Below, piece by piece: positions 29,073 through 33,912 of a stretch of 64,000 nt of DNA. The stretch spans positions 1-64,000 of IMG/VR virus record IMGVR_UViG_3300028394_000066, one strand, 5' to 3'. This stretch comes from a virus. A program made the position numbers and the translations under genes. Within the stretch, counting starts at the first letter, position 1. The number at the start of each line of letters is the position of its first letter. Below the pieces are notes generated by a model. That model was not told where the DNA came from and did not search any database. It saw nothing but the letters and a program-made list of their open reading frames with translations.

Positions 29073-29675
29073 ATGAGAGGCACTAAGCTTCAGGGCAGAT
29101 TCAACATGGATTACGAAAGTAAGTCCATGTATGAAGGCATTGCCGAAGACCTCGGTGGGACCGTGGGTGTTGAGGTCGACTGGTTCCGTTGGAGAGAAGA
29201 CTACTTCCAAGCTAACTATACGGACATTGTTGATGACATTTACGATGTTAGCTCCTCTGTTCCTACAAAGGGTAAGCGCTGGATGCTTCCGTTCAAGATG
29301 CCTGTTGTTATGGCCCAGTTTATTCGTGGAACTAACGTCATGAACGAACGTGGTTTCTACGTTGCCGATACTCTGCGTCTGGTTATGAACGTCGGAGATG
29401 TGCAGCGCATGATTCCAGAAGTACTTACAGACCCTAACCAGCAAATTAAAGATAGAATTATGTATCGTGGTCAAGTATTTGTTCCTACACGAGTTTTGCC
29501 TCGCGGTTCATTTGGATACCGTTGGGCCGTAGTAACAATTGACTGCAACCAGGTCAACCCTGAGGAACTGGTCAACGACCCACAGTTCCAGCCCCAAGCT
29601 TCTCCGTCTGTTTCGGAGAATAGAACGTACGGCTACGGAGCTGCTGGCTTCGGAGCAGACCTTTACGGAGAGTAA
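29073..29675 (+). CDS. neck / head-completion protein
   Basis: 200 residues, beta-rich, with DWFRWREDYFQANYTDIVDDIYD at about 38-60 and LPFKMPVVMAQFIRG, YVADTLRLVMN, and VLPRGSFGYRWAVVTIDC later. This arrangement resembles phage head-tail connector or neck proteins. Last 30 residues are Gly/Tyr-rich. AAGGAG ribosome site. Separated from the capsid genes by the whole fibre region, which is unusual. Confidence 0.6.
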   Translation: MRGTKLQGRFNMDYESKSMYEGIAEDLGGTVGVEVDWFRWREDYFQANYTDIVDDIYDVSSSVPTKGKRWMLPFKMPVVMAQFIRGTNVMNERGFYVADTLRLVMNVGDVQRMIPEVLTDPNQQIKDRIMYRGQVFVPTRVLPRGSFGYRWAVVTIDCNQVNPEELVNDPQFQPQASPSVSENRTYGYGAAGFGADLYGE

Positions 29676-29677
29676 AA

Positions 29678-29893
29678 ATGCCACTTGTTAAACCAACTAT
29701 TAACGCAATGAGCTGGGGGGCTACCCTCAACACAGCTTTAGACTACCTAGACACAAAGGTAGGCCCTTGGGTTGCAGTTCCTGCTACCGCCACTTCTACG
29801 GGAGTTGCGGGACAAGTGGCGTACGCCTCAGGGTTCTTGTATGTATGTGTTGCCACTAACACCTGGAGACGAACCGCTCTGAGTAGCTGGTAG
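29678..29893 (+). CDS. 71-residue small virion-type protein
   Basis: Short protein with TATSTGVAGQVAYASGFLYVC, the G.AGQ.A...(G)FLYVCV..NTW pattern found near the ends of many phage fibre and baseplate proteins, where it forms a small trimeric cap or attachment motif. The first 30 residues are helical. Probably a structural accessory. Confidence 0.6.
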   Translation: MPLVKPTINAMSWGATLNTALDYLDTKVGPWVAVPATATSTGVAGQVAYASGFLYVCVATNTWRRTALSSW

Positions 29894-29895
29894 TT

Positions 29896-30027
29896 ATGCC
29901 TTTTAAATCAAAAGCGCAACAAAAAATGATGTGGGCAACTAATCCCAAGTTAGCCGCTAAATTTCAATCAGAAACACATGGTAAACTACCTGACAAGGTA
30001 AAGAAGAAAAAGGGAAAGAAGAAATAA
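29896..30027 (+). CDS. 43-residue basic protein, first of the small-gene cassette
   Basis: Starts MPFKSKAQQKMMWA and ends in a Lys-rich VKKKKGKKK tail. The MPFKS.AQ...(M/L)(W/F)A..P..A..(F/W) pattern is shared by many small phage and bacterial proteins of unknown function. TAA overlaps the next ATG. It opens a tight run of eleven genes to 32176, eleven products of 13-98 residues, nearly all strongly basic. Confidence 0.75.
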   Translation: MPFKSKAQQKMMWATNPKLAAKFQSETHGKLPDKVKKKKGKKK

Positions 30028-30314
30028 TGGCAGAGAAGAAGAAAGACCCCAGACTTGCTAGAGCTGGAGTGTCTGGATATAACCAGCCCAAAGCAACCCC
30101 TGGAGCAAAGAAGTCTCATGTGGTGGTTGCCAAAGAAGGCGACCAAATTAAACTGATTCGTTTTGGTCAGCAGGGTGTTAAAGGTTCTCCTAAGAAGGAA
30201 GGCGAGTCCAAAGCTTACGCTGCTCGTCGTAAGGCTTTCCAGGACCGTCACGCTAAGAATATTGCTAGAGGCAAGATGTCTGCTGCTTACTGGGCCAACA
30301 AGGTGAAGTGGTAG
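30027..30314 (+). CDS. 95-residue basic protein, conserved viral family
   Basis: The core HVVVAKEGDQIKLIRFGQQG, SKAYAARRKAFQDRHAKNI and SAAYWANKVKW matches a conserved family of unknown function present in diverse phages and large DNA viruses (recognised by its YWANKVKW end; family name not certain). Basic N-terminal extension. Both ends overlap neighbours (TAATG, TAGTG). Biochemical role unknown; basic charge would allow DNA or RNA binding. Confidence 0.75.
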   Translation: MAEKKKDPRLARAGVSGYNQPKATPGAKKSHVVVAKEGDQIKLIRFGQQGVKGSPKKEGESKAYAARRKAFQDRHAKNIARGKMSAAYWANKVKW

Positions 30315-30547
30315 TGGCTAAAGTTACAGCTGGAGGATTGAAGCACAAGGTCACTAAAAAGAAAGTTGACCGAGGTGCAGGTGATAAGGGCGACATTATT
30401 GTTCAGCAGACCGCTAAGAATGGTAAAGCTCAAAGAATGAACCTAACTAAACTTGCTGGCTCAAAGACAGTCAAGCAGGGAGTTAAAGAAACACGGGCGT
30501 ACCACAAGAAGCACCCAGAGATTGGTAAAGAAGGTCGCAGGAAATAA
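30314..30547 (+). CDS. 77-residue basic protein
   Basis: GTG start overlapping the previous TAG (TAGTG) is chosen over an in-frame GTG two codons earlier. Lys-rich N terminus (KHKVTKKKVDRG), a middle with DIIVQQTAKNGKAQRMNLTKLAG, and GVKETRAYHKKHPEIGKEGRRK at the end. Unknown function; part of the small-gene cassette. Confidence 0.65.
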   Translation: MAKVTAGGLKHKVTKKKVDRGAGDKGDIIVQQTAKNGKAQRMNLTKLAGSKTVKQGVKETRAYHKKHPEIGKEGRRK

Positions 30548-30750
30548 TGGCTACTAAGAAACCTGCTGCTAAACCCAAGACAAAGTCGCGGGTTAATGAG
30601 GCTGGAAACTACACAAAACCAGCCCTTCGTGAGAGCCTCTTTAAGAAAATTAAAGCAGGAACTAAGGGCGGAGACCCTGGGGAGTGGTCTGCCCGTAAAG
30701 CCCAGCTCCTTGCTTCCGAGTACAAGAAGGCTGGCGGAGGTTACAAGTAA
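30547..30750 (+). CDS. 67-residue basic protein, conserved small family
   Basis: Basic leader, then YTKPALRESLFKKIKAG..GG.PGEWSARKAQLLASEYKKAGGGYK: the (Y/F)TKP..R..(L/I)F..IK.G..GG..G.WSARKAQ.L...YK..GGGY pattern is conserved in small phage and bacterial proteins of unknown function. TAATG overlaps on both sides. Confidence 0.75.
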   Translation: MATKKPAAKPKTKSRVNEAGNYTKPALRESLFKKIKAGTKGGDPGEWSARKAQLLASEYKKAGGGYK

Positions 30751-30992
30751 TGCCTAAGGCAGCTCCCCAGAAATCCCTGGACAAGTGGACCAAAGAGAAA
30801 TGGACTACCTCAGACGGTAAGCCGTCTAATGGTAAAAAGCGGTATCTTCCCAAGAAGGCTTGGGCAGACCTTACTCCAGCAGAAAAGAAGGCCACGAACG
30901 CCGCTAAGGCAAAGGGTGATGGCGGTAAGCCAGGAAAACAATTTGTTGCTCAACCTAAAAAGGTTGCTAAGAAGACTGCGAGACACCGATAA
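30750..30992 (+). CDS. 80-residue basic protein, conserved small family
   Basis: SLDKWTKEKWTTSDGKPS, KRYLPKKAWADLTPAEKKATN, and a final PKKVAKKTARHR: a pattern of a conserved viral and bacterial family (DUF5872-like by memory; name not certain) of unknown function. Trp-rich and very basic, suiting nucleic-acid binding. TAATG overlaps both neighbours. Confidence 0.75.
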   Translation: MPKAAPQKSLDKWTKEKWTTSDGKPSNGKKRYLPKKAWADLTPAEKKATNAAKAKGDGGKPGKQFVAQPKKVAKKTARHR

Positions 30993-31255
30993 TGGCTGGA
31001 AAATCACAAAGACCTGTAGTTAAACAAATTCAGAAGAAGTCGGCAGAGGCCGCTAAAAAGCGCCTTACTGACCCACTAAACTCTGGAAAACCAGGGCAGC
31101 AGGCTGGGGCAAAACTTAGAACTTCAGGAGTCAAACTTAACGGAACCTTGGGAACGGATAACACTATCCCAAAGATTCGTAAAAGAATTAACCAATCTTT
31201 AGTTTCTAAAGGAAAAAAGCCTATTGCTACATACAGAGGTAAAAATAATGGCTGA
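30992..31255 (+). CDS. 87-residue basic protein of unknown function
   Basis: Lys/Gln-rich N terminus (KQIQKKSAEAAKKRLTD), Gly-rich middle, and a final RKRINQSLVSKGKKPIATYRG. No family recognised. Its last 8 bases overlap the next gene. Confidence 0.6.
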   Translation: MAGKSQRPVVKQIQKKSAEAAKKRLTDPLNSGKPGQQAGAKLRTSGVKLNGTLGTDNTIPKIRKRINQSLVSKGKKPIATYRGKNNG

Positions 31256-31544
31256 TATTAAAATTGGAACTAGAAAGAAATTTGGACCCTACAAGGGTTC
31301 TGCCCAAAATGGTGGGCGAGAAATCTACGTTTGGAAAGTCAAAACCGCCGCTGGGTGGAAGACTGAGACCAAGAACAAGGCTCGTGAAGATTACGAGAAG
31401 AGTTCTGGGAGGAAACTTCCCAAGAGCGTGGATGTAGACCACAAAAATAACAAACACTCTGATGACCGTAAAAGCAACTTGCGCCCCATGAAGCACGGAG
31501 CAAATACGGCTAAGGAGAACAAACGGAGAGCAGGTAAGAAGTAA
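31248..31544 (+). CDS. HNH-like nuclease-fold basic protein
   Basis: 98 residues from ATG 31248 (the frame is open further upstream but overlaps the previous gene). C-terminal half reads DVDHKNNKHSDDRKSNLRPMKHGANT: D-x-D-H ... N-K ... D(D)R.SNLR ... H-G-A-N, matching the beta-beta-metal HNH core of phage homing-type nucleases but with no zinc Cys. N-terminal half is a small beta region with GGREIYVWKVKTAAGWK. Could be an active nicking enzyme or a DNA-binding relic embedded in the basic cassette. Confidence 0.75.
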   Translation: MADIKIGTRKKFGPYKGSAQNGGREIYVWKVKTAAGWKTETKNKAREDYEKSSGRKLPKSVDVDHKNNKHSDDRKSNLRPMKHGANTAKENKRRAGKK

Positions 31545-31705
31545 TGGTAGTTAAGAAACCCTGTACTTGTGGGACCTGTCCTGCTTGTAAAACAAAAAAG
31601 AATCCCAATATGGAGCGCACTCAAAAGATTAGCGACCGACGCAAGAACTCTATCGGTAAAATGAAGAGTTCGGCTAACCTAGTTAAAAAGGCTGGTAAAA
31701 AATAA
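31544..31705 (+). CDS. 53-residue cysteine-cluster protein
   Basis: MVVKKP followed by C-x-C-x2-C-x2-C (CTCGTCPAC, residues 7-15) and then a Lys/Arg/Asn-rich tail. The compact C-x-CG-x-C-x2-CK unit recurs in the three following genes. It could bind one zinc ion or an Fe-S cluster. TAATG overlaps both neighbours. Confidence 0.7.
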   Translation: MVVKKPCTCGTCPACKTKKNPNMERTQKISDRRKNSIGKMKSSANLVKKAGKK

Positions 31706-31746
31706 TGTGTAACGGAAATTGCACCTGTGGTAAGGAAAAGAAATAA
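31705..31746 (+). CDS. 13-residue cysteine micropeptide
   Basis: MCNGNCTCGKEKK, three Cys in eight residues. It is a complete start-to-stop frame whose ATG overlaps the upstream TAA and whose TAA overlaps the downstream ATG, exactly like its larger neighbours, and its Cys/Lys content matches theirs. Far below normal gene-calling limits; either a true micropeptide or a coupling relay left by deletion of a larger family member. Confidence 0.55.
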   Translation: MCNGNCTCGKEKK

Positions 31747-31919
31747 TGGCTGAAAAGAAAATGACTCCTAAGCAGATGAAGCTTGCTGCTATGTCGGGAG
31801 ATAAAAAGAAGATTACTAGGGGCGACGTTATTACTGCCGCTAAGATGAAGGGTTCTTCTGCTAAGTGTTCCACTGGAAAATGCGGCAAGTGTGCCTCATG
31901 TAATCGAAAGAAGAAATAA
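31746..31919 (+). CDS. 57-residue basic protein with C-terminal Cys cluster
   Basis: Helical Lys-rich N terminus (MAEKKMTPKQMKLAAM), then AKMKGSSAK and a C-terminal C-x4-C-x2-C-x2-C (CSTGKCGKCASC) followed by NRKKK. The same CGKC.(A/S)C core as in the adjacent gene, here moved to the C terminus. TAATG overlaps on both sides. Confidence 0.7.
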   Translation: MAEKKMTPKQMKLAAMSGDKKKITRGDVITAAKMKGSSAKCSTGKCGKCASCNRKKK

Positions 31920-32176
31920 TGGCAATGTGTAAATGTGGTAAGTGTGGTGCTTGTAAAAAGCGCATGGCAGCAAAGTCTGCTCCCGCAAAGAAGTACATTG
32001 GTTCTGCTGCTGACAAGAAGCAAGATGCCAAAACAACTAAGGGCATGAGCCCAGCTCAAAAAGCTATCTTCGGAAAAGCTGACGCCAAGATGGACAAGAA
32101 CAAGAGCATGACTAAAGCGCAGGATACTAAGAAAGACAACGCGCTCGCTCGACGTATTAAGTCTGGCAAGAAGTAA
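31919..32176 (+). CDS. 85-residue basic protein with N-terminal Cys cluster
   Basis: MAMCKCGKCGACKKR: C-x-C-x2-C-x2-C at residues 4-12, then a long Lys/Ala-rich tail with MSPAQKAIFGKADAKMDKNK. Last gene of the cassette; a terminator follows. N-terminal Cys knot plus lysine-rich tail makes a bipartite metal/nucleic-acid-binding design likely, but this is inference. Confidence 0.7.
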   Translation: MAMCKCGKCGACKKRMAAKSAPAKKYIGSAADKKQDAKTTKGMSPAQKAIFGKADAKMDKNKSMTKAQDTKKDNALARRIKSGKK

Positions 32177-32192
32177 TCCAACACAAACATTC

Positions 32193-32220
32193 GGGACCCT
32201 TGCTAGGCAGGAGTCCCTTT
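32193..32220 (+). terminator. terminator after the small-gene cassette
   Basis: GGGACCCTTGC / GCAGGAGTCCC (one G-T pair, one C-A mismatch) with a three-base loop and TTTGTT. Confidence 0.7.
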
Positions 32221-32226
32221 GTTATT

Positions 32227-32604
32227 ATGGGGAGTATGTCTGAGACTCAACGACACAAGCTAACAGAAATTGATGCGGAAAACCGACTTGCATTCTGTTT
32301 GAAGTGTGACACTATGGTAAAAATTCGACCTACGTATGCTCCTGAGGGTAGGCAGCAATGGCGCTGTAAAAAGGGCTATAACCATGCTTGGGCCAAGAGT
32401 CAGCGTCCATACACGCTGTATAAAAAAGAAGTATGTGAAGAATGTGGGTTCTTTGCAAAACACCCCTCTCAACTACATGTTGACCATATAGATGGGGATA
32501 GGAAAAACAACAACGAGGAAAACCTTAAAACTCTCTGTGCTAACTGCCATGCGTATAAAACAGCTATGAATGCGGACTGGATTCCCAAGAAGTTTAGCCA
32601 GTGA
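32227..32604 (+). CDS. HNH endonuclease, zinc type
   Basis: 125 residues (start uncertain: ATG 32227 or 32236; neither has a good ribosome site). An N-terminal C-x2-C (C24, C27) plus C47 precede the HNH core: C70-x2-C73, D86-H87, N99 in EENLKTLC, and C104-x2-C107-H108. Free-standing nuclease of the homing type, inserted between the small-gene cassette and the tail-completion genes. Confidence 0.85.
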   Translation: MGSMSETQRHKLTEIDAENRLAFCLKCDTMVKIRPTYAPEGRQQWRCKKGYNHAWAKSQRPYTLYKKEVCEECGFFAKHPSQLHVDHIDGDRKNNNEENLKTLCANCHAYKTAMNADWIPKKFSQ

Positions 32605-32697: not shown

Positions 32698-32904
32698 ATG
32701 TCTTCTCAAGATTTCACGCCCTGGTGGAAGAAAGTTAATAACTATCTTTCATTCGAGGAGCGCCAAGAGTTTTTGAGGGGAGCTAGTGGGTATAAGCCCA
32801 ATCTGCCCCTTGATGTACTAGTTGGTATGCTCAGCTCAGGCTATGTAAATAACAAATTCGAGAAGCCGCAATCCCATACAGGAAAGCAGAATGGCGAAAA
32901 CTAG
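32698..32904 (+). CDS. 68-residue protein of unknown function
   Basis: Starts MSSQDFTPWWKKV with AAGGA 8 bases upstream; helical, with FEERQEFLRGASGY and PLDVLVGMLSSGYV, and a hydrophilic end. Overlaps the next gene by 14 bases. Location suggests a tail or neck accessory; not recognised. Confidence 0.6.
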   Translation: MSSQDFTPWWKKVNNYLSFEERQEFLRGASGYKPNLPLDVLVGMLSSGYVNNKFEKPQSHTGKQNGEN

Positions 32905-33235
32905 ACTCTTTTTGACCAACTCGCTTAATAAGGCGATTGATAAGGTCACCGCTCAGATGACTCCTGCAGTCAGACTAGCGGCTATTAACGCGGGTTGGGA
33001 CAGAGCCGCCGCCAACGAAATTATTGTTTTGCATAAACCCAACACCATTAAAGGCACCGCTAAGGTAGATAAGTTTACAGCTTCTCTTGATGAAAACGCC
33101 GCCATTGAAGAGTACGGTACTCAAGAAAATTCTCCCAGAGGAACTGTTCGTAAATTCATGCATAACAACAGGCCTTGGGAAAAAACTGTGGCTAAAGTTT
33201 GGGAGAAAGAAACTTTTAAGGGAGGCCGTAAATGA
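32891..33235 (+). CDS. putative tail-completion / neck protein
   Basis: 114 residues. Helical, basic N terminus (LTNSLNKAIDKVTAQMTPAVRLAAINAGWDRA) and a region with AAIEEYGTQENSPRGTVRKFMHNN; the EYG...P...(R/K)FM pattern is reminiscent of HK97 gp10-like neck proteins. Followed by an ATGA-coupled tail-terminator-like gene. Confidence 0.6.
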   Translation: MAKTRLFLTNSLNKAIDKVTAQMTPAVRLAAINAGWDRAAANEIIVLHKPNTIKGTAKVDKFTASLDENAAIEEYGTQENSPRGTVRKFMHNNRPWEKTVAKVWEKETFKGGRK

Positions 33236-33912
33236 CGTTCCTTCTTTCTGAAGACAAAGCTCTAAGAGAAAAACTTCAAGGCCTTGTTGTACACGACCAA
33301 GTTGCCGATGGCTCTTCTAAGCCTCGCCAAGTTGGAGTTTGGTTTGGGCAGCCTGACCAGGAAATTCGCTCACAGTCTTACCCGTATATCACTATTGATA
33401 TGGTTGATATTCAGCGCGATTCTATGAGAGAAATGCGTGGAATTACCGATGCGGAGTACTTAAAGCCCGCAGACTTTAGCACTAGTGGAGCAACCGAGTT
33501 TCTTGTTGACCTTCCTATCCCCGTCAATATTGACTACCAAATTACAACGTATTCTCGCCACCCTCGTCATGACCGACAGATTCTGTCGCAGCTCATGATT
33601 AGTAGGCTCCAAAGATTTGGCTATCTAGAAATCGTAGAGAAAGATGTGACAGTCGACAACGTCGAAACTATCACGTCTACTTTCCGACGTATGGATGTCA
33701 TTAACGTTGCAAAGCGCGACGTAACCGAGCAGGCAAAGCGCCTGTTCGTCAACGCAATCACTGTACGTGTTTCTTCGGAAATGGTACAGACTGCATTCCG
33801 AGCAATCTACAAGGTCCTTGAAGTACACGTCGATATGCCTACAGCTGGGCGAGAGCTCATCTGGGACGGTATTGGCGAGTTTGTACTAGTTCCACCAATC
33901 GTAACCCCCTGA
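33232..33912 (+). CDS. tail terminator / sheath-completion-like protein
   Basis: 226 residues. DQEIRSQSYPYITIDMVDI and LPIPVNIDYQITTYSRHPRHDRQI(L) are typical of the tail-completion proteins (gp15/tail terminator type) encoded just ahead of the sheath in contractile-tailed phages; they cap the tail tube and sheath and join to the neck. ATGA overlap with the previous gene. Confidence 0.7.
   Translation: MTFLLSEDKALREKLQGLVVHDQVADGSSKPRQVGVWFGQPDQEIRSQSYPYITIDMVDIQRDSMREMRGITDAEYLKPADFSTSGATEFLVDLPIPVNIDYQITTYSRHPRHDRQILSQLMISRLQRFGYLEIVEKDVTVDNVETITSTFRRMDVINVAKRDVTEQAKRLFVNAITVRVSSEMVQTAFRAIYKVLEVHVDMPTAGRELIWDGIGEFVLVPPIVTP

Follow-up and report, generated by a model that had tools for sequence, protein, structure and literature searches.

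Eleven small, basic, overlapping genes in the virion operon of a myovirus and the recurrence of their core in other phages and in bacteria

The 79,213-base virus contig IMGVR_UViG_3300028394_000066 was affiliated to the myoviruses, with terminase large subunit, portal, capsid protein, tail sheath and tail tube all recognisable. We analysed positions 1-64,000 of this contig (the window), and within it a cassette of eleven consecutive frames on the + strand (29896-32176; g1 to g11) of 43, 95, 77, 67, 80, 87, 98, 53, 13, 57 and 85 codons. All ten joints between them were overlaps, nine of one base (eight TAATG and one TAGTG) and one of 8 bases (31248-31255). The products were all basic, with net charges from +2 to +19 and isoelectric points from 8.6 to 11.5, and the last four (g8 to g11) contained 4, 3, 4 and 4 Cys residues. 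A sequence-only reading of the window had described such a series of tiny, overlapping, basic frames with Cys clusters in the last four, and the sizes, joints, basic character and Cys clusters that it gave were all reproduced. It had also placed the cassette between neck and tail-completion genes. Tail sheath (33942) and tail tube (36224) were identified by Pfam downstream of the right flank, with tail genes adjoining the cassette and the capsid genes approximately 10 kb away, whereas the labels 'neck' and 'tail-completion' rest on position, the PHROGs search giving no match for 29073-29675, 32891-33235 or 33232-33912.

Relatives were collected through the 200-amino-acid protein of the left flank (alignment A1), which gave 354 viral-contig relatives, of which 80 were fetched. 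Both flanks were present in 77 loci and, after removal of duplicate contigs, 73 slots were used for all counts. Genes in the relatives were called with a dynamic-programming gene chain blind to families, which returned exactly the same eleven genes in the window and a total of 963 genes in 203 clusters. The cassette families recurred across the 73 relatives, ten of the eleven in at least 15 of them, including the 13-codon g9, the exception being g6 (5 relatives). Where the ratio of non-synonymous to synonymous substitution rates (omega) could be measured, its median lay between 0.09 and 0.25, compared to 0.20 for the flanking gene o114; these values are approximate because many comparisons were near saturation at synonymous sites. 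The weakest cases were g8, for which omega came from five pairs, and g6, which gave no usable pair. The eleven frames are thereby confirmed as real genes, by their homologues and, where measurable, by their substitution ratios, the two checks that the sequence-only reading had named.

Table 1. Features of the cassette and its flanks (positions in the window; aa, amino acids; relatives, number of the 73 slots containing the family).
Feature	Coordinates	Strand	Relatives	Median omega	Evidence or remark
Left flank, conserved 200-aa protein, virion operon, probably neck	29073..29675	+			alignment A1
71-aa gene adjoining cassette	29678..29893	+			phrog_17312, residues 734-792 of 792 (end of phage tail proteins)
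g1, 43 aa, MPFKS-AQ-family small basic protein	29896..30027	+	38	0.25	
g2, 95 aa	30027..30314	+	19	0.15	phrog_7595, full-length, 1.8e-36
g3, 77 aa, basic protein	30314..30547	+	41	0.18	GTG start
g4, 67 aa	30547..30750	+	32	0.09	phrog_17747, full-length, 8.5e-34; corresponds to N-terminal half of bacterial DUF5872-like protein
g5, 80 aa	30750..30992	+	36	0.10	phrog_14910, full-length, 9e-32; corresponds to C-terminal half of bacterial DUF5872-like protein
g6, 87 aa, basic protein	30992..31255	+	5		6 copies in the 5 relatives; weakest support
g7, 98 aa, HNH_3-like small nuclease-like protein	31248..31544	+	43	0.17	8-base overlap with g6
g8, 53 aa	31544..31705	+	16		N-terminal CxCGxCxxC box
g9, 13 aa, Cys peptide	31705..31746	+	15		MCNGNCTCGKEKK
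g10, 57 aa	31746..31919	+	66 (jointly with g11)	0.22 (g10/g11)	C-terminal Cys box; clusters with g11
g11, 85 aa	31919..32176	+	66 (jointly with g10)	0.22 (g10/g11)	N-terminal Cys box and near-universal last cassette domain
Terminator-like hairpin, closes cassette	32193..32217	+			GGGACCCTTGCTAGGCAGGAGTCCC then TTTGTTAT; hairpin scan
Separate HNH endonuclease gene beyond terminator	32236..32604	+	20		Pfam PF01844, 2.5e-7
Right flank, genes of 68, 114 and 226 aa	32698..33912	+			conserved in relatives; leads to sheath/tube

In the 73 phages of this lineage of aquatic myoviruses the same slot held four to 14 small basic or Cys-box genes (median 9), drawn from more than 20 families. The summed net charge of the slot was positive in 73/73 phages and ranged from +47 to +174 (median +109), and 547 of the 589 small non-flank genes (at least 35 amino acids) had a net charge of at least +5. 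Among the 653 cassette joints, one-base overlaps of the TAATG type were the most frequent (350). Of the 73 slots, 61 had a short Cys box; in 32 it formed a peptide of its own and in 27 it was part of a g10/g11-type protein. The peptide g9 and the other short Cys peptide family (F11) were mutually exclusive. Thus the content of the cassette was exchangeable while the slot stayed fixed and its strong positive charge was maintained. A terminator-like hairpin stood 3' of the last cassette gene in 43 of the 73 slots compared to 2 of 157 internal positions, indicating that the cassette ends the upstream transcription unit and that the separate HNH gene lies beyond the terminator. Neither an excess of sigma-70-like promoters nor an Rfam RNA was found at the cassette.

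Several further features of the slot were observed. Approximately three quarters of the cassette genes (451/603) encoded at least two Lys or Arg residues among their last four, and the A/G-rich codons ahead of TAATG may double as a ribosome-binding sequence for the next gene. In a sister group (loci L137, L139, L142, L143, L149, L151, L153, L156, L157 and L159-L162) an acidic gene of 46-54 codons with a net charge of about -8, opposite to that of all other cassette genes, was located in or beside the slot. Some cassettes carried a DUF6496 protein (5.5e-11; L055 5999-6181, L115 10429-10611), a family that is known in bacteria too. The 71-amino-acid gene that adjoins the cassette in the window had versions of 130-752 amino acids with an identical start in the relatives, suggesting that the window copy is a truncated fibre-like gene. 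Just left of the cassette in L091 and L122, two slots with DUF6321, lay a 41-codon chimera (family F55) of the g2 start and the end of the 71-amino-acid gene, a trace left by recombination at the edge of the slot.

Full-length PHROGs matches were obtained for g2, g4 and g5, in line with the claim of the sequence-only reading that several products belong to small conserved families of unknown function; the other frames gave no strong match in the Pfam or PHROGs libraries. Within the lineage g4 was always accompanied by g5 (32/32), which followed it directly in 30 of the 32 slots, and at g4 loci in viruses outside the lineage g5 was present in 71/72 and adjacent in 63/72. In sister cassettes a second family, F6, which matched Pfam DUF6321 (PF19846; 5.9e-26), took the place of g2 in the same slot; none of the window genes matched DUF6321. 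The two excluded each other: g2 occurred in 19 and DUF6321 in 37 of the 73 lineage slots and in 47 and 20, respectively, of the 72 outside loci, with no slot containing both as intact genes and no outside locus containing both. The seeming exceptions, L091 and L122, contained no more than a short N-terminal piece of g2, attached to the end of another gene. Homology between g2 and DUF6321 was unsupported, the two having no more than a short RRxSFxxR segment in common (hhalign probability 19%), as was homology between g4 and g5 by hhalign.

Linkage and exclusion persisted across phages with unrelated capsids. The core of g4-g5 plus either g2 or DUF6321 recurred in roseophages, pelagiphages, methylophages and the 72 sampled contigs outside the lineage; MEP401 carried DUF6321-g4-g5 with g4-g5 directly upstream of the terminase, HTVC034P carried DUF6321/g4/g5, and CRP-9 and HMO-2011 carried g2/g4/g5. 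In the P22-like phage MW202867 g2 was located between gp4 and gp10 homologues, and in the cyanosiphovirus S-CBS2 it adjoined g1. The earlier suggestion that the unit is not a standard phage module consequently applies to the long eleven-gene version in this slot, which is a special feature of this lineage, and not to the recurrent core. A g4-like domain (55% identity) was also seen inside a 1022-amino-acid phage protein annotated ParB/Sulfiredoxin (BFVD A0A6J5PCY7).

With two HNH genes at the slot (g7 and 32236-32604), a strong turnover of content and order, and chimeric remnants at the slot edge (L091, L122), the cassette might be read as a homing-endonuclease hotspot in which the HNH genes drive shuffling and the basic genes are loosely selected and have no one shared function. 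The resemblance of g7 to the Pfam HNH_3 model (1.2e-4, 22.1 bits) fell below the curated cut-off of 24.8, with the D-H...N...N-L pattern kept. A hotspot is nevertheless improbable, as the genes retained were almost only basic or Cys-box genes (547/589) and the g4-g5 linkage and g2/DUF6321 exclusion recurred in unrelated phages that do not have this slot.

The constancy of the total positive charge while families change would also be expected if the products acted as a bulk polycation, neutralising the charge of packaged DNA like protamines with their sequence hardly relevant. We regard this as highly improbable. Purifying selection was strong on g4, g5 and g2 (omega 0.09-0.15), stronger than on the neighbouring virion-operon gene, and g4 displayed 31 invariant columns across 22 diverse sequences from unrelated phages, which makes pure charge neutralisation unlikely since selection acts on specific residues. 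The exclusion rules likewise imply specific roles. In addition, one copy of each of the eleven products would supply approximately +158 charges compared to approximately 158,000 phosphates in a 79-kb genome, and the simple DNA charge neutralisation proposed as one option by the sequence-only reading is weakened accordingly. We infer that the function is sequence-specific rather than a matter of mere charge.

A scan of bacterial and archaeal genomes identified g4 plus g5 as one open reading frame in Myxococcus, Corallococcus, Hymenobacter, Spirosoma, Fibrella, Fibrisoma, Acidobacteriaceae, Sphingomonas and others, colinear with the window (g4 then g5) and mostly with an N-terminal tail rich in K/A/P or R. 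These lysine-rich tails are histone-H1-like. The bacterial fusion approached the Pfam family DUF5872 (PF19197; best 1.1e-5, 26.4 bits, cut-off 27.5) and covered positions 2-94 or 4-101 of the 116 of the model, spanning both halves, whereas neither g4 nor g5 alone matched this Pfam model; in the phage the two parts lie in neighbouring genes. RefSeq gives the name DUF5872 to a plasmid-borne homologue from Azospirillum, and DUF5872 has been reported in an algal virus (PMC12085832). Phage g4 and g5 are the two halves of this chromosomal protein, encoded separately. In some contigs (L204, L219, L230, L234) DUF6321 was a near neighbour of the cellular fusion. Several further matches in the collection were short contigs with g4 and g5 as separate genes, which are probably phage contigs binned with genomes.

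Chromosomal g4-g5 fusions with histone-H1-like tails in many bacteria would fit products that act in the infected cell and not in the virion, as nucleoid-like proteins that condense or displace the DNA of the host or protect that of the phage while it replicates in late infection. The lack of any report of a stand-alone product in virions in the open-licence literature is consistent with this. The genes were, however, part of a late virion operon in the lineage and lay near structural genes in MEP401, S-CBS2, HMO-2011 and the P22-like MW202867, and their domains were found fused to portal, capsid protease and virion proteins (see below), and we therefore consider an action confined to the infected cell rather unlikely.

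Several links to virion proteins were identified. In CL131 ORF012 the g2 domain is flanked by the portal and MuF domains, and the CL131 portal has been detected in purified virions by liquid chromatography-tandem mass spectrometry (PMC6293099). The C-terminal part of the ICP1 gp125 capsid protease is a g2 domain, and the AlphaFold model of g2 matched the predicted structures of the ICP1 protease and of an XkdF-type protein (Foldseek; probability 1.0, E-values 1e-3 to 3e-3). DUF6321 was located at the C-terminus of S-CREM2 gp137 (3.5e-10), for which four unique peptides were recorded in the virion proteome after caesium chloride purification (PMC10665884 Table 3), and in a protein annotated 'structural protein' in the cyanomyovirus T4-GC119. 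The latter combined DUF6321 with a weak CW-GY match (0.01) and a g5-like SL-W-SDGK segment seen by eye and not recovered by Pfam or the g5 profile, in a single protein of 460-530 amino acids in place of the separate tiny genes of the cassette. The CW-GY motif of sister cassettes was also present in the head maturation protease (XkdF-type) of HSTV-1. Packaging into the head, another option of the sequence-only reading, gains indirect support from these fusions, whereas the literature searched contained no proteomic detection of a cassette product on its own in virions. The products may also form a metal-dependent nucleoprotein system, the third option of that reading. A gene for an HU-type protein (L084 7067-7354) was present in CL131 as well, a short distance downstream of that for the portal.

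The presence of the g2 domain in a portal-MuF protein and a capsid protease, the CW-GY motif in an XkdF-type protease, the g4-g5 pair directly upstream of the MEP401 terminase and the HNH-like g7 in 43/73 slots could instead indicate helpers of head assembly or packaging that bind portal, scaffold or protease in the procapsid, assist in starting or completing DNA packaging and leave before maturation, the HNH protein acting with the terminase as in HK97-type phages. This explanation is unlikely, given that the window cassette lies far from the capsid genes and beside tail genes, that the cellular g4-g5 fusions need no phage assembly, and that S-CREM2 gp137 and the CL131 portal stay in mature virions.

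Structural models were of moderate confidence, with a beta hairpin and helices for g2 (AlphaFold pLDDT 79) and two helices for g4 (pLDDT 72). No similarity to HU, histones or other known nucleoid proteins was detected for g2, g4 and g5 by Pfam and PDB sequence searches, nor for g2 by PDB fold. A Protoglobin match of g2 (0.0075, below cut-off) was dismissed as chance, weak PDB matches to ribosomal proteins L24/L21 (0.24-0.85) were judged compositional, and NCBIfam gave weak unrelated matches only. The g2 model resembled, weakly to moderately, small proteins from giant viruses of eukaryotes, namely Tunisvirus (V9SE36), Chloriridovirus (W8QE68) and CeV-01B (A0A0N9R3E1) in Foldseek.

The occurrence of the matched trio in unrelated viruses, together with a bacterial g4/g5 that is a single chromosomal protein, suggests a shared DNA-coating job, probably inside the head. 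Our preferred reading, to which we give somewhat less than an even chance, is that the cassette encodes small nucleic-acid-binding proteins that become part of the head during its assembly, with a defined core trio and exchangeable basic accessories. The small proteins would be produced late, along with those of the virion, and in the head would sit on the packaged DNA or organise it; we infer here the binding, the occurrence of the separate small products in virions and their role. They may also enter the cell along with the packaged DNA. The functional core would consist of g4 and g5, the split DUF5872-like protein, with either g2 or the DUF6321 protein as the third subunit, and the other lysine-rich genes and Cys-box peptides would be exchangeable accessories gathering at the 3' end of the transcription unit, before the terminator. 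A more far-reaching version is doubtful: a chromatin-like virion system in which a trio shared with bacterial chromosomes, and possibly with eukaryotic large DNA viruses, organises packaged DNA, and to which lineages like the present one add swappable lysine-rich or Cys-box subunits.

Several points weigh against a head-borne DNA-binding role, beginning with the missing proteomic record of the stand-alone products. The virion proteomics concerns large fused proteins, one with only four peptides, and such fused proteins could use the domain differently. No known DNA-binding fold was matched by g2, g4 and g5 in Pfam and PDB sequence searches or by the g2 model in a PDB structure search, and the basic charge fits binding of RNA or another polyanion equally well. 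The neighbours of the bacterial fusion genes displayed no common theme, with varied contexts and no shared DNA-related genes. Finally, because the contigs are related, the pattern of the trio is less significant than the Fisher p-values (5e-8 and 2e-13) imply.

Small basic late proteins packed in the head are known from phage T4 as the internal head proteins (IPI-III and Alt). The cassette resembles these by idea only; no sequence relation was found, and it differs by its cellular homologues and fixed trio. The component families, DUF5872 included, are known but have no assigned function, and the arrangement into a cassette is the new part within the open-licence literature searched, which contained no description of the cassette organisation, the g4/g5 split or the g2/DUF6321 exclusion. 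On lysine-rich cassettes and on the DUF numbers it yielded nothing beyond one entry in a genome list.

The analysis joins DUF5872, DUF6321, DUF6496 and three PHROGs as parts of a single module that follows set rules and occurs in abundant marine and freshwater phages and in bacteria. It turns 'hypothetical proteins' often overlooked because of their size into a testable candidate for the handling of packaged DNA in some tailed phages. The split or fused g4-g5 and the g2/DUF6321 exclusion yield clear genetic predictions, and as Phaeobacter and Myxococcus carry the cellular version, the function is accessible in the laboratory.

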